This document shows, piece after piece, positions 16,628 through 29,614 of a DNA stretch of 64,000 bases (within the stretch, counting starts at the first letter, position 1; each line of letters starts with the position of its first letter). The stretch comes from Candidatus Stoquefichus massiliensis AP9. Its GTDB lineage: Bacteria > Bacillota_I > Bacilli_A > Erysipelotrichales > Coprobacillaceae. The stretch spans positions 230,287-294,286 of the forward strand of contig NZ_HG005285.1 of the NCBI RefSeq assembly GCF_000455285.1, read 5' to 3'. The position numbers were made by a program, and so were the translations under genes. The notes under the pieces were generated by a model. The model made no database searches, was not told the DNA's origin, and was given only the letters and a program-made list of their open reading frames with translations.

Positions 16628-16827
16628 TTCAATTATTTCTAGAGCATTATCAGAAATAATTTATGAAAAATTTACAACTCTTAATAACATCGCCATAAAA
16701 ATAAAAACAAACTCTTTTTCTAGTATTCCTCTTTTTTTCTTAAAGTATTGAAAATTTAAAGATATAGAATTTTTTCATCCATAAGAAGATAAAATTATCT
16801 ATTCTTTATTTCATCTAACTATCTATT

Positions 16828-17788
16828 TCATAAACTTATACTCATATTTGATAATGGTCCATCAAATTCATAAGCTTTATTCTGCTGAAAAATCATATCC
16901 GATTCTATTTCATCCATATTCTGCTTCTTTCCTTTTATAGAGTTATATAGATAAAAATATCTTAATATTTTCATTGTATCAGGTTTATAGTCATCTATCA
17001 TATACATATTTACACTCAAATACTTCTTATAATCAGTTGGCCTAATATATTCTTTTTGATCTATAATACTATCTATAATTGCCTCGATAATTAAATCATG
17101 ATGATAAAAGTATGAATAATGATCTGTAGAATAAATACCTAATGCTGTTTTATATAATTGTTCTTTATTAAAATTTTCTATTTGTGCATGTTTCAATGCA
17201 GTTCTCAATATACTCATATGAGAAGATACAGAAGGAGTGATATTGGAAATCCCCGTATATAGACAATCATCTTTTGACAGAATATATTCTGATGTCCCTA
17301 ATCCTATAAGCGGTATGGCTAAGGCAAATTGATGATACCTAAATAAGATTAAAAATATGATCAATATAATGATAATAGAATACACTCTCACATTATTAAA
17401 TGGAATTTCATATTTTTCTATATTATAGATGAACTCATCTTCTTTTCCTGTTTTCACATACTGAATATTCGTCAAATCAGAAATTGCCATATCAAACAAA
17501 TGACCAATATGAATATGCCATGGAGATGTTTCAATAATAAATGGAAATAAAGCAATTGACTGTATTTTACAATGATGTCTTATGCAATATATAACTTTGC
17601 AAACAGTGATGATTATACCTATAAAATAATATGAAATAAATCCTATAACTATCAAATAAAAGATCATAAACATGAATTCTATAATCATATTCCCTTGATT
17701 CTTGAAAAAAATCAAATTGAACGATATAAGCGACAAGAGTTAATAATCCTGTAATGCTTTGTATAATAGAAGCAATCTTTTTCATCAT
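16828..17788 (-). pseudogene. Membrane protein gene broken by a single-base frameshift; paralogue of the 379-aa neighbour
   Basis: The frame opens at 17788 with MMKKIASIIQSITGLLTLV, a normal membrane N-terminus, but after VQFDFF the sense frame continues one position off, giving FKNQGNMIIEFMFMIFYLI and about 290 further residues. The shift falls in a run of seven T (A at 17705-17711); six would restore one protein of about 320 residues. The product resembles the gene at 17835-18974 from its membrane helices to the C-terminus: IIEAIIDSIIDQKEY against IIEMIFDSIIDNKDY, and KPDTMKILRYFYLYNSIKG against KLNTMDVLRYFAVYNQLKG. No family is recognised. It may be decayed, phase-variable, or a sequencing error; a shorter product from internal starts is possible. 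Confidence 0.65.
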
Positions 17789-17834
17789 CTACCGCTTTCT
17801 AGATATTTTATAACAATGATTATAGTTTGATTGA

Positions 17835-18974
17835 TTACTTTAACACATTGAATTGTTGACTTACTAAAATTCGTTTTGTAGAAAACACATCAAAATAATA
17901 ATAAAAATCATGTCTAAAATCTTTCAGCAAATGAACCTTTCCATCTTCTAGTTCATTAACATATCTCCAATACATATTCACAAACCATTTCAATATTGGT
18001 TCTTCTCCAAATTCAATTTCAATGACCTGATTTCTCATATCATCAATAATCTCCTGAAAAACTATACGATCACCTTTTAATTGATTGTATACTGCAAAAT
18101 AGCGCAATACATCCATTGTATTCAGTTTTAAGCCTTGTACAACTGGAATATTGTTATGGCTTAGATAGAGCTTGTAATCATCTTTAGATATATAATCCTT
18201 ATTATCTATAATACTATCAAATATCATTTCAATAATAACTTCACAATTATATTGCCAATATTTATTATCTTGAAAAAATGTCATATGACTTAATTCATGA
18301 TATATCTTTTCTTTATCAGCATTATCTTCTGTTCTACAATATGTCAGCATCTGTCTATATAGATTGATCTGATAACCATCATCATTTTTAGAAATGATGG
18401 GATTCATAATATCATGATCAGTATCAATAGACATATACATAATCCGATATAATGCCAACCCTAATATCTCTATAAAAATATAATATAATCTATAATATAG
18501 AAATATCGTACCTACTAAAACAGTCGTTGCCATCGCTACTTTAACTAAATGAGAAAAGGGAATTAAAAATTGATCATAAACCTCAACAAATTCTTTTTCT
18601 TTACACAAATCCTCCAAATAGAAAGTTGTTAAGTTATTTGCAGTTAAGAAATTAGAACTGATCATCAACTTCACTCTAAGAGGTTTCAATTCAATGAATA
18701 CAAAAGATAAATCAACACTTTTTAACTCAAGTCTATTTCTTTTGCAATAACAGATTTTTACAAATGTTATCAAAATATTTTGAACAATGTATATTAATAT
18801 TAACATAATGAATAAATTGAATACAATATACATAGTTGCCAATATAAAATGATGAACTGCTACATCAAGTATATTTGTTCCAAACAAATATACTAGCATA
18901 GATAGCAATAAGAATATTCCTTGAATAAAATGTGCAATAACTTTCTTATTATTCAAGTATTTGAATAAATGCAT
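17835..18974 (-). CDS. Membrane protein of unknown function (379 aa), paralogue of the next gene
   Basis: A 379-residue protein with four hydrophobic segments: two at about 15-65 (including IVQNILITFVKICYC) and two around 150-185, then a soluble C-terminal half of about 190 residues. The soluble part contains DDYKLYLSHNNIPVV and MDVLRYFAVYNQLKGD, shared with the frameshifted gene at 16828-17788. A good AAAGGAAA ribosome site precedes the ATG. No domain is recognised. It lies downstream of the peptide-export locus on the same strand, so a link (such as self-protection) is conceivable but unproven. Confidence 0.72.
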   Translation of the reverse strand: MHLFKYLNNKKVIAHFIQGIFLLLSMLVYLFGTNILDVAVHHFILATMYIVFNLFIMLILIYIVQNILITFVKICYCKRNRLELKSVDLSFVFIELKPLRVKLMISSNFLTANNLTTFYLEDLCKEKEFVEVYDQFLIPFSHLVKVAMATTVLVGTIFLYYRLYYIFIEILGLALYRIMYMSIDTDHDIMNPIISKNDDGYQINLYRQMLTYCRTEDNADKEKIYHELSHMTFFQDNKYWQYNCEVIIEMIFDSIIDNKDYISKDDYKLYLSHNNIPVVQGLKLNTMDVLRYFAVYNQLKGDRIVFQEIIDDMRNQVIEIEFGEEPILKWFVNMYWRYVNELEDGKVHLLKDFRHDFYYYFDVFSTKRILVSQQFNVLK

Positions 18975-19025
18975 ATAATTTCCTTTCTGCCATGATGATA
19001 TATGTACTATTTCATGGAAAATATT

Positions 19026-19385
19026 TTATACTATAACAAAGAAATATATCAAAACAATAAAAAGCATACAAATTCCCAAGCCCAAAAGACCAAATTTAAA
19101 AGCGTTTTGTTGTCCTTTGGTTTTTTGTGAATTCTCAGTTAGAAATATAGAAGTTATTTTTCTTTTATTTAACCAAAAAGCAATCAAAAATAATTCTATA
19201 AATTCAATAACAAGTGTGACAATTTCAATTGACTCATCATTTATAAACTCTTTCCCTAATGTTAAATCTGAAAACATAAATATTAAATTTAATATAAGCA
19301 AGTATAATATCTTTTTATCATTTTCAATTTTATCTTGATATAAAACATAAAAAATACAAATCATCCAAACTAAATTCGGTAACAA
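19026..19385 (-). CDS. Small membrane protein of unknown function (about 119 aa), start uncertain
   Basis: A 119-codon frame with hydrophobic segments at about residues 1-16, 26-42, 55-70 and 97-118, separated by charged stretches such as LNKRKITSIFLTENSQKTKG. The only in-frame start for the full frame is TTG at 19385 with no ribosome site. A perfect GGAGG at 19411-19415 is followed by an ATG in the same frame, but two stops (TGA, TAA) intervene five codons later, so the 5' end may be damaged. No family is recognised. Confidence 0.5.
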   Translation of the reverse strand: MLPNLVWMICIFYVLYQDKIENDKKILYLLILNLIFMFSDLTLGKEFINDESIEIVTLVIEFIELFLIAFWLNKRKITSIFLTENSQKTKGQQNAFKFGLLGLGICMLFIVLIYFFVIV

Positions 19386-19435
19386 TTATCATCCACATAA
19401 CAACATTCCTCCTGAAACTGTATATATTTATAAAA

Positions 19436-19751
19436 TTATTCTTTATGATAACTCTTTTTGATATTAGAAATTTTCACATCAGTCATTTCTCTGATTTTTT
19501 CTAGAAGCAAAATATCATCACATTCATCATTAATAAAACATAGAAGTTCATTTATTTTATCATTATATATTTTTTCAGCCTGATTGCTACTCCATTTATC
19601 AATTAATATTAATAAATATTTAGTTATTAACAATGATCCTAAAATAGAAATAAATATAGATATGACAATAAATACTATATTGTATTCTTTAAAAAGAAAT
19701 GCATAATAAAAATAGAAATATAAATATCAAAACATTTAAAATCTTTTTCAT
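19436..19751 (-). pseudogene. Small membrane protein gene with a one-base frameshift near its start
   Basis: The frame opens at 19751 with MKKILNVLIFIFLFLLCISF and stops, while the next frame continues without a gap as FKEYNIVFIVISIFISILG and runs on through LLITKYLLILIDKWSSNQAE to a charged end, stopping at 19436. Removing one T from a TTTTT run near 19690 joins them into a protein of about 104 residues with two membrane helices and a polar C-terminal half. AAGGA precedes the first ATG. No family is recognised. Decay and sequencing error are both possible. Confidence 0.6.
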
Positions 19752-19832
19752 AATAATATCAATCCTTACCCAATATGACTATAATAACTCTCCAATCTTA
19801 CAATTTAACTTCTTTTTATGCTTTGAATATAA

Positions 19833-20228
19833 TCATTCAACAAATGCCTTTTCTATCTTTATTCTATATTCAAAATCATATCTTATTTCATTAATTTTAT
19901 GATGCTTAAATGAAATAACTCCATTACACATGTTTTGAAAAGTATCTTCATATTCATAGTAACCTTCCCTTATAATCTGTAATTCAAAAATATTATCAGA
20001 AACATCTTCTTCAAATATTTTCTTTAACATAAAATCAACATAATCAATAATTCTTTTTAAATTTTCATTATCATTATTTTTTTGAAACCAATATCCCATT
20101 ATCATTAATAAATCAAAATTTTCATAAAACACTCTTTTTTCAATATCTCAAGTATTACGAAACTTCTTTTGATATAAATAGCTTTCATTATTATGTTGAT
20201 TTATTATTTCATCTAATTTATATAGCAT
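19833..20228 (-). pseudogene. Short soluble protein gene interrupted by an in-frame TGA
   Basis: A frame begins at 20228 with MLYKLDEIINQHNNESYLY and meets TGA at 20148-20150 after 26 codons; the same frame then continues without interruption through DIEKRVFYENFDLLMIMGYW to the stop at 19833. Read through, it is a polar protein of about 131 residues rich in Glu, Asp and Lys. Alternatively translation begins at a GTG (20132), giving 99 residues. No family is recognised; the absence of membrane segments sets it apart from its neighbours. Confidence 0.5.
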
Positions 20229-20373
20229 ACATCTTTTCTTAAAATTTTAAATTTTCTTAATTCATTATGCATAAATCAAAGCCTCCTCATTCACATAATT
20301 CAAAATTCCTTGATAATTCTGAAAAGACAACATTTTTCTACTTAAAAAGAACTATTTTAATCTAGCTTATTGA

Positions 20374-21108
20374 TTACTCAGTTTTCATATGATATCTCAG
20401 TAATATTTGATAACATCTTATACAATAAGGGAAGAAAAATACTACTGTCATCAATATAATAGGAAGACCTTGTAATATAGTATCAGCAAAATTAATATAA
20501 GTTAGCATTCCAATCAATGAAAGAAATGTTTCAACGAAAAACATAAATAATGTCATATTCATAACCCTGTATTTAAAATAACTGATTAATATATAAACCA
20601 TATTTATTATGATCAATAAACCAATAAATACAGAATTCATTCCAATAAAACTAAGCAAACTTCTTATGACCAAAGGAATAAACATCATTAAAATAAAACT
20701 TATCATATTTGCAATAACAACTCCAATATATACATCACTTTGTTTTCTATATTCCCAATTCATTATTAATCTTTTGATATATTCTTCAACCTCTAACTTT
20801 GAATATTCTTGAATTCTTTCATATGGAGTTTCAACCCGTTCTTTTAAACATATAAAGTTTAATATACACATACCAATCAAACATATGCATAATATGTAAA
20901 TTATGACTTCTTTTGAAATATCAAATAAATTTAATGAATAACACAATATATAGACATGAGTAATTATAATGAGTAAAAAATACTGACAAATTTTTAATAT
21001 AACCCTGATATACCTATTCATAAATATATCAGTCAATAAAATTATGTTGATTATAAGATGTATCCAAATTGTCCAAGACCATAAAGTCATCCATGTATCT
21101 AAATTCAT
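20374..21108 (-). CDS. Polytopic membrane protein of unknown function (244 aa)
   Basis: A 244-residue protein with about seven hydrophobic segments: three in residues 1-95, then a cytoplasmic stretch with RVETPYERIQEYSKLEVEE, and four more in residues 128-235. It ends in a basic YQILLRYHMKTE tail. No conserved motif or family is recognised and the ribosome site is weak. It resembles bacteriocin-immunity or ABC-2-type accessory membrane proteins only in general shape, so no function is assigned. Confidence 0.65.
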   Translation of the reverse strand: MNLDTWMTLWSWTIWIHLIINIILLTDIFMNRYIRVILKICQYFLLIIITHVYILCYSLNLFDISKEVIIYILCICLIGMCILNFICLKERVETPYERIQEYSKLEVEEYIKRLIMNWEYRKQSDVYIGVVIANMISFILMMFIPLVIRSLLSFIGMNSVFIGLLIIINMVYILISYFKYRVMNMTLFMFFVETFLSLIGMLTYINFADTILQGLPIILMTVVFFFPYCIRCYQILLRYHMKTE

Positions 21109-21276
21109 GAAGTTCTTGTTTTATTTATTATAATATAAAAGATACTGTTAAGTAAAAATATGACTTGTAAGTAATTGATTTTTTTCATAGTTCCTCCCAT
21201 CACATAAATAAACAAAGACTTCTATTATTTAGATTCCAAATCACCACTTTAATAATATAATAACAAAATATTTATT

Positions 21277-21834
21277 TTAACTTTGCATTTTCAATTCTAT
21301 ACTTCCACCTTTCCCAACCTCTTCTGTCTTTAACTCTAGAAATTCTTTATCTTCAATAAAAATATACATATCAGATTTTCTTAAAAACAAAGCATGAAAA
21401 TTGATACATCCTTCTTCATATTGAAAAAAACAAAATGCTTTTTTCTCCATTTTATCAGAATTTCTCAATAAAATATCTAGGGTGTTTAAAAATTTATCTA
21501 TATCTGTTTTCTTAACTTCAGAAATACCCATAACTATCAATGGAATAAAGTGACTAGATATTTTTAAATAAATCTCTTTTCTGCATAAATCTTTTTTATA
21601 ATCAACTTTGATAAAATAAATTAACATTCCCTGTACAAATAGTAAAATGATTAGTACGCCTAAATCCAAAACCTCATTTTCTTTAAAATACATGATTGTT
21701 TTCCATAAAATAATACCTTCTACAAAACAGAAATAGATTTTAAGTGCTGTAAAATGAATGACTTTAATGAATGTGTACATAAACAAAAAAGACAACATAA
21801 CAATTGCACCCACAATAAACTCATTTTCCATCAT
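21277..21834 (-). CDS. Membrane protein of unknown function (185 aa), paralogue of the upstream 180-aa gene
   Basis: A 185-residue protein: three membrane helices in about residues 5-95, then a soluble domain with KISSHFIPLIVMGISEVKKT and DKFLNTLDILLR. The helices and this soluble stretch align with the neighbour at 22005-22547, so the two arose by duplication. AAAGGATGAT precedes the ATG. Family not recognised. Two-paralogue membrane proteins beside a peptide-export locus could be immunity or receptor-like proteins, but nothing in the sequence proves it. Confidence 0.7.
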   Translation of the reverse strand: MMENEFIVGAIVMLSFLFMYTFIKVIHFTALKIYFCFVEGIILWKTIMYFKENEVLDLGVLIILLFVQGMLIYFIKVDYKKDLCRKEIYLKISSHFIPLIVMGISEVKKTDIDKFLNTLDILLRNSDKMEKKAFCFFQYEEGCINFHALFLRKSDMYIFIEDKEFLELKTEEVGKGGSIELKMQS

Positions 21835-22004
21835 AGCAAATCATCCTTTCTTTCTAATCAATATAACAAATATAGAACAAAATGCACCAGCCCAAAACGA
21901 ACTAATCGTCCAAATTTATTATCATTTCTATAATTCTATATACATTAATAAATAACTTAATAATAAAGTAGATATTCAAATTGCATTAACATTTAATAGA
22001 ATAA

Positions 22005-22547
22005 TTAATCTGACAACCTTTTTTTTATGTTTTCAATTTTTAAATTCTCAGATTGAGAAATTTGACTAGCTATATCATCAAAAACGAAATTCTTCTTAAA
22101 AAGAATAATAGATATTTGTAATTCATCATTTTCCATTACTATATATCCAAAATTAGGTGTTCTTGTAGAAAGAACATGATTCAAAAAATTATTTAATTCA
22201 TTATAAAATATATCTAATTTTTCATTCTGAATCTCTTGCAATCCACACAAGAAAATCGGATTCAAATGACTTCTTGATATCATCTTATAAAGACAAGCAA
22301 CTCTTTGATCTTCTTTATATAGGTCTCTGATAAATGCTATCAAAAAAAATTCATAAAATAATAATAACACAATAAACATAACATCAATTTCTTCAGCGAG
22401 AACACATGATACTATTTCATAAATAAGTATCATTTGAGTAATAAAAATATAAAATTTTGTGAACCAAATATTTATATTTCTTATTAGAAAATATATAATA
22501 AAAAAAATTGTTATAATTAAGGCACCACTTATAAACGACTCTATCAT
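22005..22547 (-). CDS. Membrane protein of unknown function (180 aa), paralogue of the downstream 185-aa gene
   Basis: A 180-residue protein with three membrane helices (about residues 5-90) and a C-terminal soluble domain containing MISRSHLNPIFLCGLQEIQ and DIFYNELNNFL, matching the paralogue's ISSHFIPLIVMGISEV and DKFLNTLDILLR. The ribosome site is weak. It begins about 60 bp after the terminator that closes the peptide-export operon, so it probably has its own promoter. Family not recognised. Confidence 0.7.
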   Translation of the reverse strand: MIESFISGALIITIFFIIYFLIRNINIWFTKFYIFITQMILIYEIVSCVLAEEIDVMFIVLLLFYEFFLIAFIRDLYKEDQRVACLYKMISRSHLNPIFLCGLQEIQNEKLDIFYNELNNFLNHVLSTRTPNFGYIVMENDELQISIILFKKNFVFDDIASQISQSENLKIENIKKRLSD

Positions 22548-22609
22548 ATTTTATTTCTTAGCATAATACTTATATATTACACTTCTCCTCTCTTATAATA
22601 ATAAAGTTG

Positions 22610-22647
22610 AGTCAAACAATATTATTCCAACATAATATTGTTTGACT
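22610..22647 (-). terminator. Perfect 16-bp hairpin closing the peptide-export operon
   Basis: AGTCAAACAATATTAT (22610-22625) is the exact reverse complement of 22632-22647, with a 6-base loop. The minus-strand side is followed by CAACTTTATTATTA, without a clean T-run, so termination is likely but not certain. Confidence 0.65.
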
Positions 22648-22655
22648 ACTTGGTT

Positions 22656-22781
22656 TTAAAATCTTAAAGTTATAGATGAATTTGTTGCATATACAACTCC
22701 TATGGCCAAACTACTAGCCAATACGACACCTGCAAATGCACTTGATAGAGTTATTGCCCAAAAGTTTTCTCTACATAAATC
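22656..22781 (-). pseudogene. Remnant or startless frame of 41 codons with one membrane helix
   Basis: Minus-strand frame without a start codon, reading from a TGA through CRENFWAITLSSAFAGVVLA and a second hydrophobic stretch to NSSITLRF and a stop. It lies between the 65-aa gene and the hairpin that ends the operon. It looks like the C-terminal part of a small membrane peptide whose 5' end has been lost or shifted out of frame; its end slightly recalls the C-terminal part of the precursor at 23039-23410, but this is too short to judge. Confidence 0.35.
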
Positions 22782-22840
22782 TCATTTATATAGCACATCA
22801 AAATTGTAGATATTAAATTGATCGATACTACTAACCAAAT

Positions 22841-23038
22841 TTACTTGTGACTATTATCCGATGATTTATTTAAAATATTAAACAACATAATTTCAACAAA
22901 GAGAGAGATAATATTAAACATATTTAGATAAATACCATATGTAGATCCAGGAATACCATTAATGAATGATATAACGTTCACTACTAAAACAATACAAATA
23001 ATTGTAAGAAAAAAAATTAAAAGTTTTATATTTTTCAT
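22841..23038 (-). CDS. Two-helix membrane protein after the precursor (65 aa), possible immunity protein
   Basis: A 65-residue protein with helices at about residues 5-27 and 38-57 separated by INGIPGSTYGIYLN, and a hydrophilic NKSSDNSHK tail. Its ATG follows the precursor's stop codon with no gap, so it is almost certainly co-translated with it. Small membrane proteins directly after a double-glycine precursor are often bacteriocin immunity proteins; that role here is inferred from position only. Confidence 0.6.
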   Translation of the reverse strand: MKNIKLLIFFLTIICIVLVVNVISFINGIPGSTYGIYLNMFNIISLFVEIMLFNILNKSSDNSHK

Positions 23039-23410
23039 CTAAAATTGTATTCTTCCATTCGTTCCTGTTCTATCATATCTATCCAATGCATATGCAATAG
23101 CACCTCCAGCACTAAAATTAAGTAATGTCATCGCAAAATTTGCTATAGAAGAAGCCATTCCAATATAAATTCCAACTCTAGTTATTGCTCTAGTAATATA
23201 CTGTTTCATCGTTTTCTTCCCAAAGAAGTTCACTAAAGTTCTATATCCCATCCATAAACTAAAACCACATGTTATTGCACCGATTGCCACATCAATAAAT
23301 CGAGCAGTTGTCTTTCTACTCCAATCTATACTATAGCCTCCATCTAAATACATCATCTCCTCTTCTTCAATTTCTACATAGTTTCTTGGTAAATTCATTG
23401 TCATTTCCAT
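23039..23410 (-). CDS. Peptide precursor with a double-glycine leader
   Basis: A 123-residue precursor. Residues 1-25 form a leader rich in acidic residues that ends EEEEMMYLDGG, matching the double-glycine type cut by C39 peptidases after Gly25. The mature part of about 98 residues begins YSIDWSRKTT and has hydrophobic helices at about 40-57, 74-94 and 97-110 around a basic loop (FFGKKTMKQY), and ends NGRIQF. This is larger than usual class II bacteriocins. The start follows GGAGGAAAAAGTT. It lies after the HlyD-like gene and before a tiny membrane protein, in the operon of the C39 exporter. It could be a bacteriocin, a signal or a surface-acting peptide. Confidence 0.78.
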   Translation of the reverse strand: MEMTMNLPRNYVEIEEEEMMYLDGGYSIDWSRKTTARFIDVAIGAITCGFSLWMGYRTLVNFFGKKTMKQYITRAITRVGIYIGMASSIANFAMTLLNFSAGGAIAYALDRYDRTGTNGRIQF

Positions 23411-23479: not shown

Positions 23480-24742
23480 TTAATTCCTAAAACTCAATAA
23501 TTCTAATAGCCAATCTAGATATGTTTCTTTCTCATAAACAATCCTTGCAACAACTGGCATTGATTTTATAACATCTATCTTAGCTCCATCTGTTGAATGG
23601 AGTTGCTTATTGTCTAAGGAAACAAGACACTTATATAACACAATATTTCCTTGTTCTGTTTCTTGTGTTAGTGTTCCTGAATCTATGGAAACAAGTTTTC
23701 CATTCAATGTTCCATACTTTTGTATATTGACTCCATTAATCGCAACCTTCACATCATTGTTAAGTTGTACCTTAGAGATATCAGTTGCCTTTATGTATGC
23801 TTCTACAATCATTTGATCATCCTTATTGGTACTGATTTCAGCAACTGTCTGTCCTTTTTGAATAGTAACCCCTTCTTTAATTGTTGAAAGATAATGGACA
23901 TAACCATTCTGAGATGCTTCTACTGTTGTAAGTGCATCTTGTGACTGATATGCTTTTAACTGTCCTTCTAGTTCAACTAAAGTTGATTGTAAGGTTGTAC
24001 GGGTATTCCCTGCTTCACTAATTAACTGAATCTTTGTTTGTTCAGCTTGTGAAGAACTTGTTTGATTTAACTGATTGATTTCTTCTTGTAAAGATTCTAA
24101 TTCAGATTGTTTTGTTTCTAAGGAAGAATTGAGTTCTTCTTTTTTGATTTTATCTTCTTCTGTATCTTTAAGTTTAGAAATCTGATCTTTTAAAGATTGG
24201 ATTTCTTGTTCTTTCTTTGTTTTCTTTTCTTCTTTTTGTTTGAGTGAGTTTTGGTTATTTTCTTTTGTTTGATTTTCATCATCTAATGATGATAAATAAT
24301 ATCTGACTTTTTCATAATATTCTTGTTCTATGCCTGAATTATACATTTTGTTCTTCTGTTTATTTAATGAATCAATATATTTATTAATTGCAGTAATTTT
24401 ATCTTTTATATTGGATATTTGTCTCTGCAAGGCACTATATTGGATGCCTTCACTACCCGTAGAAATTTCAAATAAAACATCTCCTTTTTTAACGAAAGTT
24501 CCTTCTTTTATTTTCAAATTTGTAAGAACGCCATCAGATAAAGAACTGATATAAATATTATCTGATGTTGTGATTGTTCCACTCGCTTCAACAATATAAG
24601 ATTTACTCATCCAGGAACTCATCCAAATTGCAAATATAATCATGAAAAGAATAAACACAATAAAGATGGTCAGAAACATAGGTGGCTGTTTATCAAAGAA
24701 AATACGTGAATCATTGAGTTCTGATTTTTGATAAAGTTTCAT
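23480..24742 (-). CDS. HlyD/LcnD-like membrane fusion protein of the peptide exporter
   Basis: A 420-residue accessory protein. One N-terminal membrane helix (about residues 25-46) is followed by a half-lipoyl segment (GVLTNLKIKEGTFVKKGDVL), a long coiled coil from about 130 to 245 rich in Lys, Glu and Gln (EKKTKKEQEIQSLKDQISKL), the second lipoyl half (ASQNGYVHYLSTIKEGVTIQ) and a beta-barrel end. This is the layout of bacteriocin-secretion adaptors, which bridge the ABC exporter to the cell wall. The start overlaps the preceding gene by 4 bases, so they are coupled. Confidence 0.87.
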   Translation of the reverse strand: MKLYQKSELNDSRIFFDKQPPMFLTIFIVFILFMIIFAIWMSSWMSKSYIVEASGTITTSDNIYISSLSDGVLTNLKIKEGTFVKKGDVLFEISTGSEGIQYSALQRQISNIKDKITAINKYIDSLNKQKNKMYNSGIEQEYYEKVRYYLSSLDDENQTKENNQNSLKQKEEKKTKKEQEIQSLKDQISKLKDTEEDKIKKEELNSSLETKQSELESLQEEINQLNQTSSSQAEQTKIQLISEAGNTRTTLQSTLVELEGQLKAYQSQDALTTVEASQNGYVHYLSTIKEGVTIQKGQTVAEISTNKDDQMIVEAYIKATDISKVQLNNDVKVAINGVNIQKYGTLNGKLVSIDSGTLTQETEQGNIVLYKCLVSLDNKQLHSTDGAKIDVIKSMPVVARIVYEKETYLDWLLELLSFRN

Positions 24743-25206
24743 AACTGCATCACCGGTCTAAAGAAATCTGTAATGACATATTCTTCACTATCGTGAATAC
24801 AGACAGTATAGCTTTCACCAGTGCTTTCTAAATCATTTTCATAAAAATATAGATCTAATTTTGAATTAGCAAAATTGATTTCTAATGGATCACCCTCATA
24901 ATGAATATAAACACAATGAGGGCATTCTAATTTATCAATAATTTGAAATTCATTTTTATATTGTTTATAATCATGAGCCTGAATAAGTAAGTCATAATCT
25001 GTTGTGATATTGCCATCTTCTAAAATATTTGTTCCACAAGATTTGATAACCAATGGACCAAAGACTTGAACTTTAAGTATATCTAGTTTATTTGCGAACT
25101 TATTAATTTGCTGATCTATATCTTCAAAAGAAATTCCCCTTAATTCTTTTTTGAGAACATTTTTTAAAACTAATTTTTTATTTTCTAATACTTCTAACTT
25201 AGCCAT
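24739..25206 (-). CDS. Uncharacterised 155-aa protein inside the peptide-export operon
   Basis: A soluble protein of 155 residues placed between exporter and adaptor genes. It starts MAKLEVLENKKLVLKNVLKK, contains VFGPLVIKSCGTN, CPHCVYIHYEGDPLEINFAN and ends VITDFFRPVMQL. The layout of a short helical start followed by strands that end in DFF-P recalls DUF5085 or effector-binding (GyrI-like) proteins, but I am not certain of the family. The start overlaps the exporter's stop by 8 bases, so it is translated with it. Possible roles are chaperone, peptide binder or immunity; none is shown. Confidence 0.6.
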   Translation of the reverse strand: MAKLEVLENKKLVLKNVLKKELRGISFEDIDQQINKFANKLDILKVQVFGPLVIKSCGTNILEDGNITTDYDLLIQAHDYKQYKNEFQIIDKLECPHCVYIHYEGDPLEINFANSKLDLYFYENDLESTGESYTVCIHDSEEYVITDFFRPVMQL

Positions 25207-27409
25207 AATTGATTTCCTCCTCATCTACTACTGTTTTATTGACTTTTTGCATTGTCATGTTTTGTAAAGAAATCATCTTTGCATACTGACCATTCATTGC
25301 CATCAGTTCATCATGAGTTCCTTGTTCAATGATTTTCCCATTTTCAATAAAACAAATAAGATCACAGTTGATGATTGTTAATAAACGATGAGCAATAATA
25401 ATTGTTGTTGTATTTCTAATCTTTTTAAACAATAAATCATGTATCTTTCTTTCACTAAATGAATCAAGATTGCTTGTTGCTTCATCAAAGATAAAGATTT
25501 GAGATTTAGAAAGAATAGCTCTAGCAATGGCTAATCTTTGTTTTTCACCACCAGATAAATTACTACCACCCTCTTCAATAAACGCTCCATAACGATTAGG
25601 TAATCTTTCTATGAAAGAACTCGCTCCTGCCATCTGACATGCTGTCATGATTTCTTCATATTTTGCTTCTGGATTTCCAATTTTTAAGTTATCTATGATT
25701 GTCCCTGTAAAGAGTTCTATATTTTGTGGAATATAAGCAATATTTTTTCTTAAATAAGTTTCATCTATATCATGAACATTATAACCATTGATTGTAATCT
25801 TTCCTTCATTAACATTCATAAATCTTAATAGAAGTTTTGCAATAGTACTTTTCCCAGCACCACTTTCTCCAACTAATGCGACTCTTTTTCCACTTGGAAT
25901 TGTAAGATGAAAGTCCTTAATAACTGGTGGTCTTGATCCATAAGCAAAACATACATTTTCAAAACATATATCACCTGATAAATCAATATCCTTGATTAAA
26001 TCTTCCTGATGTTCATCTTCCCTATCTAATGACATGAGTTCATTGAGTCTTGTCATTGCTATATCTGCTTCCTGAAATGTCAATTGTAAAGAGACTAAAC
26101 TTTGAATAGGTTCAGTAAAATATTGACTTAATGTCTGAAATACCAATAAATCCCCAATACTCATTTTCCCATCTATAATAAACATTGCTCCAATTGCCAT
26201 AAATACTAATCCACCTAATGAATCAATAAAATTGGAAATAACACCTTGTACATTTTGTAATGTTCCTTCTTTATATCCTAATTTTAATAATGAAACAAAA
26301 CGATTTTCTAATTTATAAATCTGTTGTATTTCATCATTTTGTGATTTGACTGTTTCAATATTTTGCATTGATTCAATCAAATGACTATTCATCATAGCAT
26401 TTGATTCCATTTGTTCATAATTTAATTTCTTATAGGGTTTCTTAAAAACATAAATAAGAATGATATCAACAATAACCATTACAATTAATATAAGAAACAA
26501 GCTTGCATTGAGACTAAATAATATAATGGCTGCAATTACTGACAAAACAATATCTAACACTAATGAAACAGATACAGTTGTAAAAATATCTTTAATAGTC
26601 AATGCATCTTGAAATCTTGTAATAATATCTCCTACTCTTCTAGACGCAAAAAACACATAAGGTAAATGGATAATATGGTTGTAATATCCCATCAATAATG
26701 GGATATCAACCTTTCTTGAGAGAAATAAGATAATCTGTTGTTTAAAAGCTGATAATAAGTTTTGAAATAATATAACAATTCCATAAGCTAGTAAAAATAT
26801 ATAAAGTTTATTTTTAAGTTGATAGGGAATAATTTCATCCATTAAAACCTTAGAAAAAGTACTTGATAATATGCCTATAATACTTAATACAAAGCTGGCA
26901 AGAATAATTGTCAATAGTAATTTCTTTTGTGGTAATATCAAAGCACAAAATAAATCCCACATTCCTTTATCTTTATATTTCATACGTTCAAACTCAGATG
27001 TTGGAATCATCATAATCAGAACACCTGTGTATAATTCTTGAAACTCATTTCTTTTCAATTTCAAATTTCCTTTTGCAGGATCAGAAATATAAAAAGTTTC
27101 ATTCTTTACTTTTTGAATCACAACAAAATGATCCAGTCCTTCTTTTGTATGTATTTGTGCAATAGTTGGATATGTCATATCATCTGTTATACCTTTTATC
27201 TCTACACGTACTGCTTTCACCTGGAATTTCATTTTTTCTAACCCATCAACAATTCCCTTCACACTTGTTCCATAAAGATCTGTTCCAATAATTTCTCTTA
27301 TTTTCATTAAAGACATTTCTTGTCTGTAAACAAGCATGACTGTTGATAATGCAGCAGCTGCACAATCTGACGCATCATGCTGCATAGTACATGGATATTT
27401 TCTAAACAT
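25199..27409 (-). CDS. Peptidase-containing ABC exporter (C39 peptidase, PCAT type)
   Basis: A 736-residue exporter that removes double-glycine leaders and pumps the mature peptide out. The N-terminal C39 peptidase has QHDASDCAAAALSTVM (catalytic Cys15 or thereabouts), HFVVIQKV (His) and DPAKGNLKLKR (Asp). Six membrane helices follow between about 155 and 440, then the ATPase: Walker A GESGAGKSTIAKLL, signature SGGEKQRLAIARAIL, and Walker B FIFDEATSNLD. The length and order match bacteriocin or ComA-type PCATs. First large gene of the operon; promoter region with phased direct repeats and a 15-codon frame upstream. A GGGGAG site precedes its ATG. Confidence 0.95.
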   Translation of the reverse strand: MFRKYPCTMQHDASDCAAAALSTVMLVYRQEMSLMKIREIIGTDLYGTSVKGIVDGLEKMKFQVKAVRVEIKGITDDMTYPTIAQIHTKEGLDHFVVIQKVKNETFYISDPAKGNLKLKRNEFQELYTGVLIMMIPTSEFERMKYKDKGMWDLFCALILPQKKLLLTIILASFVLSIIGILSSTFSKVLMDEIIPYQLKNKLYIFLLAYGIVILFQNLLSAFKQQIILFLSRKVDIPLLMGYYNHIIHLPYVFFASRRVGDIITRFQDALTIKDIFTTVSVSLVLDIVLSVIAAIILFSLNASLFLILIVMVIVDIILIYVFKKPYKKLNYEQMESNAMMNSHLIESMQNIETVKSQNDEIQQIYKLENRFVSLLKLGYKEGTLQNVQGVISNFIDSLGGLVFMAIGAMFIIDGKMSIGDLLVFQTLSQYFTEPIQSLVSLQLTFQEADIAMTRLNELMSLDREDEHQEDLIKDIDLSGDICFENVCFAYGSRPPVIKDFHLTIPSGKRVALVGESGAGKSTIAKLLLRFMNVNEGKITINGYNVHDIDETYLRKNIAYIPQNIELFTGTIIDNLKIGNPEAKYEEIMTACQMAGASSFIERLPNRYGAFIEEGGSNLSGGEKQRLAIARAILSKSQIFIFDEATSNLDSFSERKIHDLLFKKIRNTTTIIIAHRLLTIINCDLICFIENGKIIEQGTHDELMAMNGQYAKMISLQNMTMQKVNKTVVDEEEINYG

Positions 27410-27430: not shown

Positions 27431-27478
27431 TCATCCTTTTAATAGTTTCATAATAAGAACCCATAATCTATAATACAT
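27431..27478 (-). CDS. Tiny ORF of 15 codons with a perfect ribosome site
   Basis: ATG at 27478 follows AAGGAGG (27486-27492) with 7 bases between, and the frame MYYRLWVLIMKLLKG stops at 27431, 21 bases before the exporter start. It is hydrophobic with cationic ends, amphipathic in a helix. It is the first frame after the regulatory repeats of an operon controlled by a GHKL/LytTR pair, so it might be an unmodified inducing peptide, or a leader that sets exporter translation. It has no leader of the double-glycine type. Real translation is not shown. Confidence 0.5.
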   Translation of the reverse strand: MYYRLWVLIMKLLKG

Positions 27479-27532
27479 ATTGATCCCTCCTTGAAAATAA
27501 ACTTAATTTATATGAGAGATTTTTTGAATATA

Positions 27533-27564
27533 TTTGTTCCGAAGGGTACTGTTTTTGTTCCGAA
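27533..27564 (-). promoter_or_regulatory. Phased direct repeats, probable LytTR regulator binding site
   Basis: TTCGGAACAAA occurs twice on the minus strand (27564-27554 and 27543-27533), with identical bases and a start-to-start distance of exactly 21 bp, two helical turns. LytTR regulators such as AgrA, ComE and PlnC bind pairs of 9-bp repeats with this spacing upstream of bacteriocin and signalling operons. The site lies about 130 bp before the exporter gene, with a candidate -10 (TATAAAT) downstream. Confidence 0.72.
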
Positions 27565-27568
27565 TGAC

Positions 27569-27600
27569 AAAAAAAGAGAAAATTTATTATAAATTTTCTC
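27569..27600 (-). terminator. Terminator of the two-component system
   Basis: GAGAAAATTTA-N3-TAAATTTTCTC followed by seven T on the minus strand, 28 bases after the kinase stop and directly before the direct repeats, separating the two transcripts. Confidence 0.88.
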
Positions 27601-27628
27601 CACTACTTCATTCAATCATCATATATTA

Positions 27629-28918: not shown

Positions 28919-29614
28919 TTACTTCAATCTCCCTATATACTCAAAGAATGCATTTTCTAATAAGTCCTGATATCTTTTCGACACAGGTATAACCACGTTG
29001 TTTTTCAAAATCACTTTATTAGTTTCACATTTTTTAATATGTATAACATTGACTATATAAGAACGATGTACCCTTATAAATAAATCTTTATATAATAATT
29101 GTTCCATGTCTGACAAACAATTTCTAACAATCTTATTTGTTTGATTACATAGATATACAGTGCAATAAGAACGGCATCCTTTGATATACAATATATCATA
29201 TTTATCAATTTTTTCTCCTGCTAAAGAAATCATTTGATGTGCATTATACTTTTTCATTATCTTATCTAAATAAGGGTAAATTCCTGTTATATTGTTTTTT
29301 TTCACAAAACCACAAACGCATATTCCAAATGCTTTTTCCATTAATTCATCATGATCAGTTAAGAAAATAATTTTTGATGGTACATTATTCCATTCTAAAA
29401 CCTCACTAACTTCAAGCCCATCTTTTCTTTTCATTTCAATATCTAATATAATAATTTTATAGACCTCTGAATCTTTTAACAATTCTTCCCCATCATTAAA
29501 TAATTCTATGTGTATTTTTATATGTTTGTTTGAAAAATATTTTTTGATCATATCTTTTACTTGTCTTTGTATCATTTGATCATCATCGCAAATCACAATC
29601 TTTAATTCATCCAT
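28919..29614 (-). CDS. LytTR-family response regulator (AgrA/ComE-like)
   Basis: A 231-residue regulator. The receiver domain has acidic pocket residues in ICDDDQM and the probable phospho-accepting Asp58 in IIILDIEMKRKDG; the C-terminal LytTR DNA-binding domain has ILYIKGCRSYCTVYL, LYKDLFIRVHRSYIVNV and VVIPVSKRYQDLLENAFFEY. It is cotranscribed with the GHKL kinase gene. Probable target: the 21-bp-spaced repeats at 27533-27564. A TATAAT -10 lies about 25 bases before the start with no clear -35, which could mean activator-dependent expression. Confidence 0.94.
   Translation of the reverse strand: MDELKIVICDDDQMIQRQVKDMIKKYFSNKHIKIHIELFNDGEELLKDSEVYKIIILDIEMKRKDGLEVSEVLEWNNVPSKIIFLTDHDELMEKAFGICVCGFVKKNNITGIYPYLDKIMKKYNAHQMISLAGEKIDKYDILYIKGCRSYCTVYLCNQTNKIVRNCLSDMEQLLYKDLFIRVHRSYIVNVIHIKKCETNKVILKNNVVIPVSKRYQDLLENAFFEYIGRLK

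Follow-up and report, generated by a model that had tools for sequence, protein, structure and literature searches.

A pair of identical 11-bp direct repeats, TTCGGAACAAA, located in the gap that separates the genes of a LytTR/GHKL two-component pair from a peptidase-ABC (C39) exporter operon of Candidatus Stoquefichus massiliensis AP9, is very probably the site at which the adjacent LytTR response regulator (RR) activates an operon for a short peptide and the exporter. The stretch of DNA analyzed (the window) comprises 64,000 nucleotides, and all coordinates given here are window positions. The upstream repeat (27554–27564), the proposed promoter-distal LytTR half-site, and the downstream repeat (27533–27543), the proposed promoter-proximal one, are both read on the minus strand and are present exactly where the initial annotation had placed them, with a start-to-start distance of 21 bp and a 10-bp gap (AACAGTACCC). 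On this strand, the repeats are preceded by the genes of the RR and the GHKL kinase and by a terminator, and are followed by a −10 element, a Shine-Dalgarno (SD) sequence, a short open reading frame (sORF), and the genes of the exporter, a 161-amino acid protein, an HlyD-type protein, and a bacteriocin precursor.

The initial annotation had noticed no other copies of the repeat in the window, and this held: TTCGGAACAAA occurs exactly twice, and a copy with 1 mismatch (18874–18884, TTTGGAACAAA) lies within an ORF and fits chance, as 3 matches with at most 1 mismatch were found in the window versus 1.6 expected. The genome-wide motif search it had proposed returned no second pair in the 3.5-Mb genome, even when up to 3 mismatches over 22 positions were allowed. 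A looser search over 18 positions gave 5 more scattered matches with 3 mismatches, versus 1 for the reversed control pattern. At period 21, no other complex exact repeat reaches 11 bp anywhere in the window. Under a Markov model of the 219-bp intergenic gap, the probability of an exact repeat of 11 bp or longer was 0.0023 for a period of 20 to 22 bp and 0.023 for any period between 12 and 60 bp. The latter value, together with the many near-repeats that AT-rich DNA yields, could be read as indicating a chance repeat without function, but the low P value at the expected period, the location of the pair between the terminator and the −10 element, and the systematic occurrence of such repeats at comparable loci make this extremely improbable. 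Two database matches were themselves attributed to chance: the only viral exact match to the pattern among 2.9 million contigs encodes SFGTNTDRFGTN in a phage gene, and the one weak match to Rfam, where no convincing family was found (mir-4659, scoring 20.6 bits where the gathering score is 92), overlaps the hairpin of the terminator.

The proposed binder is encoded at 28919–29614 (minus strand) and consists of a receiver domain (PF00072) and a LytTR domain (PF04397, 1.1e-17). Its gene is followed by that of an AgrC-like GHKL sensor kinase (PF14501; 27629–28918, minus strand). The nearest relatives of this RR are approximately 30% identical to it, and a peptide-pattern scan of named genomes found no close RR relatives. 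Published LytTR repeats are 9 bp long and separated by 11 to 13 bp, and their length, spacing, and placement are conserved while their sequence is variable (PMC6193735); the PlnC repeat TACGTTAAT, for example, has a 12-bp spacer (PMC2714321). The 21-bp spacing, which the initial annotation had recognized as that of LytTR-family targets, fits this arrangement. The repeat had also been noted to differ from the AgrA, ComE, and PlnC core sequences, and indeed TTCGGAACAAA matches no known core (ACCNNTTAN, TACGTTAAT, ACAGTTAAG). This difference is however no objection to the LytTR reading, because the sequences of published LytTR repeats vary (PMC6193735). The period and placement of the repeats, the LytTR neighbor, and the comparative counts given below agree with the initial proposal that the nearby LytTR regulator is the likely binder. 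When the region upstream of the RR gene was checked for autoregulation, no repeats like the TTCGGAACAAA pair were found.

An intrinsic terminator of the RR-kinase operon, formed by a 12-bp stem followed by a T run (27571–27601, minus strand), lies just upstream of the repeats. The hairpin (27601–27571) has a minimum free energy of −10 kcal/mol and a z-score of −4.75, and was missed by a consensus terminator scan that requires 3 G-C pairs. On the other side of the repeats, 20 bp past the second one, lies the best −10 candidate by sequence, TATAAA (5/6; 27507–27512, minus strand), and a consensus promoter scan found no promoter at this site. At 17-bp spacing, the position for a −35 element overlaps the end of the second repeat, and its sequence, AAATAT, does not match a −35. 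Because no usable −35 is present, the promoter looks activator-dependent. The distance of approximately 20 bp between the second repeat and the −10 is shorter than the 26 to 32 bp found at relatives with a clear −10, and the published placement, with the repeats 4 to 11 bp upstream of the −35, was not reproduced using TATAAA, the sole good −10; the short distance may mean that the start site has been misjudged. The SD of the sORF, GGAGGG (27485–27490, minus strand), starts 41 bp after the second repeat, and the repeat-to-SD distance is 41, 42, and 42 bp in the related loci L065, L066, and L067, respectively. In locus L091 it is 43 bp, but the SD there is that of the exporter.

The occupation of the expected −35 position by the second repeat would also suit a repressive box, in which the RR sits over the −35 region and blocks RNA polymerase until the kinase signal alters its state, and LytTR regulators can repress, as do PlnD (PMC2714321) and AgrA at bsaA (PMC4227749). 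We consider this unlikely given the lack of a usable −35, the activator-dependent look of the promoter, and the layout of the relatives with a clear −10, in which repeats 26 to 32 bp upstream correspond to an activator. Activation by the RR is the reading that we retain for the box.

We then analyzed repeats behind related kinases. For GHKL kinases with a LytTR partner, collected within the same order and class, the sequence between 30 bp upstream and 140 bp downstream of the kinase stop codon was scored against Markov shuffles for direct repeats with a period of 20 to 22 bp. Repeats at p ≤ 0.02 were found after 15 of the 42 kinases, for part of which the adjacent LytTR gene was checked, versus 2 of 92 other genes. 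The latter count derives from 98 genes from comparable loci: 8 were positive, and 6 of these were kinases of the set itself. An overlapping first set of RR-kinase pairs, in which the LytTR gene was checked for all, gave 15 pairs with a repeat at p ≤ 0.02 out of 54. The repeat words vary across loci (ACCGTTCGTC, TGACGTTCAT, TAAATACAAT, CCGTTGGATC, and others), and the period is constant at 20 to 21 bp. Among the 6 best-scoring relatives of the RR, 5 (L065–L067, L069, and L070) have both repeats of period 20 to 21 bp and an sORF directly after the kinase gene. The exception is L068, the closest pair of the sister species, which has no clear repeat and no sORF. Each copy of the window repeat contains TTC-G-GAA, a short pseudo-palindrome, and a different protein, such as a dimeric helix-turn-helix regulator, could in principle bind this TTCGGAA half-palindrome. 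Yet the gene for such a regulator is not adjacent, LytTR-partnered kinases are as a group followed by repeats of this period, and no palindrome is present in other repeats of the class (TAAATACAAT, ACCGTTCGTC), which makes such a binder very unlikely.

Clear repeats with a period of 20 to 21 bp were also seen right behind the kinase genes of loci L190, L194, L195, L184, and L129, where the words are CAGATTAGAC, C(T/C)AAGCAGAC, AATGACGATC, CT(A/G)TTCGTGC, and ACATTT(G/A)GTG; these are candidate LytTR boxes. In locus L112, a repeat-bearing promoter (ACCGTTGGATC/ACCGTTCGATC, period 21) precedes an ORF that by our own reading resembles AgrB, making this locus a candidate agr system in this family.

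The initial annotation had located the repeats in front of the exporter operon. The operon does follow, but its first ORF is not the exporter gene: it is a 15-codon sORF (27431–27478, minus strand; MYYRLWVLIMKLLKG) that encodes a candidate short signal or effector peptide. This sORF has a strong SD and lies directly before the SD of the exporter, at 21 bp from the start codon of the exporter gene, and it is probably translated. Six related kinases have an ORF for a mostly aromatic-rich peptide of 16 to 19 amino acids just downstream (VQLYSFFEWIIEWLYGKK in L065, MMMTYGFYEWLIKWLGGGH in L066, MTTYGLYEWLLKWLGGWS in L067, MVYTLLREIWRLIYGKR in L069, MLLFYNFWKIWRYGKI in L070, and MSPVYLKTLLRLLGLL in L091), in 5 cases with a strong SD and in L070 with a weaker one. 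An ORF of 12 to 26 amino acids with a strong SD within 160 bp was found after 6 of 69 genes with an open downstream gap, and all 6 are these kinases, including that of the window; none of the non-kinase control genes in these loci has a strong-SD short ORF downstream. Three of the peptides, from related species, have the common pattern Y-x-x-[YF]-E-W-[IL]-[IL]-[EK]-W-L, the peptide ORFs of L066 and L067 show synonymous codon changes, and tryptophan is present in 6 of the 7 peptides versus 19% of short ORFs at large. The amphipathicity of the window peptide was no better than that of shuffles (0.18). The sORF-bearing kinases are clustered on the kinase tree (4 label changes versus 6.9 in shuffles) without forming one clean clade, and the idea that they make up a single clade was not upheld. 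Nor is the arrangement universal, as seen with the L068 pair, and in L091 the sORF sits ahead of the terminator without a clear repeat of its own.

Lying directly before the SD of the exporter and so close to its start codon, the 15-codon ORF might serve the exporter only as a leader or for translational coupling and might not encode a signal. This is compatible with the RR box, and the double-glycine precursor of the window could then be the inducer. We regard it as possible but rather doubtful, considering that in L065–L067 no exporter or other same-strand gene follows the sORF nearby, and that similar peptides recur behind related kinases. The proposal that the window peptide is the inducing signal of the kinase is a lead that we put forward tentatively, somewhat short of calling it probable. 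A search of the open literature found no report that describes leaderless short peptides accompanying LytTR pairs in this group of bacteria.

The main target of the box would be the peptidase C39-ABC exporter (25199–27409, minus strand), which scores 581.8 bits against the bacteriocin_ABC model TIGR01193 (cutoff 523.85). It is followed on the same strand by the 161-amino acid GyrI/BmrR-C-like protein (24739–25224), which is a marker of this type of exporter operon, the HlyD-type accessory protein (23480–24742), and a 123-amino acid precursor with a double-glycine leader (LPRNYVEIEEEEMMYLDGG...; 23039–23410) that is likely the exported bacteriocin. The precursor leader contains MMYLDGG and is common to the operons of relatives. 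The 161-amino acid protein is present in 12 of the 316 genomes of the order, is conserved between the exporter and HlyD genes in those 12 genomes, and belongs to no Pfam or NCBIfam family. Its AlphaFold model (pLDDT 91) matches GyrI/BmrR-C-type ligand-binding folds such as those of CTR107, CtaZ, and SbmC, and the protein possibly binds the exported product or confers self-protection. A plasmid search with this marker, performed to check the spread of the operon, gave no match, and an exporter scan gave just a 25% generic ABC match.

Locus L091 has the same order of RR, kinase, exporter, 161-amino acid protein, and HlyD genes, with an exporter 74% identical to that of the window and an RR gene that is frameshifted in that assembly. 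An imperfect repeat pair, TTTACAACAA/TTTATAACAA, with a period of 20 bp (P = 0.02) precedes its exporter gene. Alignment of the window and L091 promoters was suggestive by eye but not significant (P = 0.125), and L091 thus supports the box by architecture and not by sequence. In seven exporter operons of this family that lack an adjacent RR-kinase pair, the exporter gene is preceded by no SD-led sORF and no comparable repeat.

Several other features of these operons were observed. Precursors of 50 to 126 amino acids with the leader type LPxxYxxLxxEEMMYxDGG and very different cores form a family that accompanies this exporter type and has no Pfam entry; its members are the window precursor (23039–23410, minus strand), L062 4614–4994, L091 11426–11578, and L092 7705–8052, and L062 carries a second precursor of the family upstream (M..LPYSATELTSEEMMYTEGG). 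The tail of the window cluster (16800–23000, minus strand) contains many short or degenerate ORFs with TTG or GTG starts, an ORF (17835–18974) with an HELSH (HExxH) motif, and several small membrane proteins that are apparently paralogous in pairs (22005/21277 and 17835/16828). This tail appears to be in part decayed, or else enriched in membrane proteins of the immunity type. In L068 (9328–14271), from another species of the genus, the RR-kinase pair is followed by a lactococcin-972-type bacteriocin (PF09683), a DUF1430-like membrane protein, and an ABC ATPase.

On this reading, the box would be a further example of the known LytTR direct-repeat promoters. As with PlnC/PlnD of Lactobacillus plantarum and HdrR/BrsR of Streptococcus mutans, near-identical short repeats with a period of approximately 20 to 22 bp lie upstream of the promoter of a bacteriocin or export operon, with the LytTR regulator adjacent or in control (PMC2714321; PMC6193735). 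Unlike in those systems, the window word TTCGGAACAAA matches none of the published words compared, the second repeat is nearer to the −10, and the kinase gene is not preceded by a gene for a double-glycine inducing peptide, the 15-codon ORF being found after the box instead. The agr system of Staphylococcus aureus, with AgrA acting at P2-P3, shares the GHKL kinase, the LytTR RR, the direct-repeat box, and the weak promoter (PMC4227749). However, neither an AgrB peptidase nor an AgrD precursor is found among the neighboring genes, the candidate peptide, unlike AgrD, has no cysteine or serine for a ring, and the window RR reaches just 23 bits with the AgrA equivalog model, whose cutoff is 400. 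The LytTR regulatory systems of the S. mutans type resemble the box in repeat size and spacing and in variable sequence (PMC6193735), but they consist of a LytTR protein and an inhibitory membrane protein and are autoregulated, whereas the window regulator carries a receiver domain and is paired with a GHKL kinase, and the region preceding its gene lacks repeats. Finally, a C39-ABC exporter, an HlyD-family accessory protein, and a double-glycine precursor are shared with the double-glycine-peptide three-component bacteriocin regulons of the Pln/Blp/Spp type; in the window, by contrast, the kinase-RR pair is adjoined not by a gene for a short double-glycine inducing peptide but by an sORF without a double-glycine leader, and the 123-amino acid precursor is long and located downstream.

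From the repeats and their uniqueness, the gene order, the −10 and SD elements, and the recurrence of repeat, promoter, and sORF behind related kinases, we infer a circuit of binding, activation, translation, and signalling in which the kinase (28918–27629) would sense an extracellular or membrane peptide and phosphorylate the RR. RR subunits would then occupy the two repeats along the same face of the helix and bring in RNA polymerase at a promoter that has the −10 TATAAA but lacks a recognizable −35. The predicted transcript would start past the RR-kinase terminator and cover the 15-codon ORF and the genes of the C39-ABC exporter, the GyrI-like protein, the HlyD protein, and the bacteriocin precursor. 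The short peptide would probably be either the own signal of the system or a small membrane-active product, and a positive feedback loop would be closed. As a broader and still rather speculative proposal, a group of GHKL/LytTR pairs in the order might constitute a peptide-signalling system that uses neither AgrB nor a double-glycine leader, in which the RR acts via the period 20–21 box behind the kinase gene on an aromatic, amphipathic peptide of 15 to 19 amino acids that is the ligand of the kinase, and in which the window cassette has captured a bacteriocin-exporter operon. The combination of the box with an ORF for a short leaderless peptide behind the kinase, AgrB and a double-glycine inducer both being absent, would be new if confirmed. 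If this is true, the repeat box offers a direct entry to how poorly studied bacteria decide on making and exporting bacteriocins, and a 20- to 21-bp-period repeat just behind a kinase gene would serve as a rule for locating, in many LytTR two-component systems, the target and a candidate signal peptide, with peptides small enough for direct synthesis and testing.
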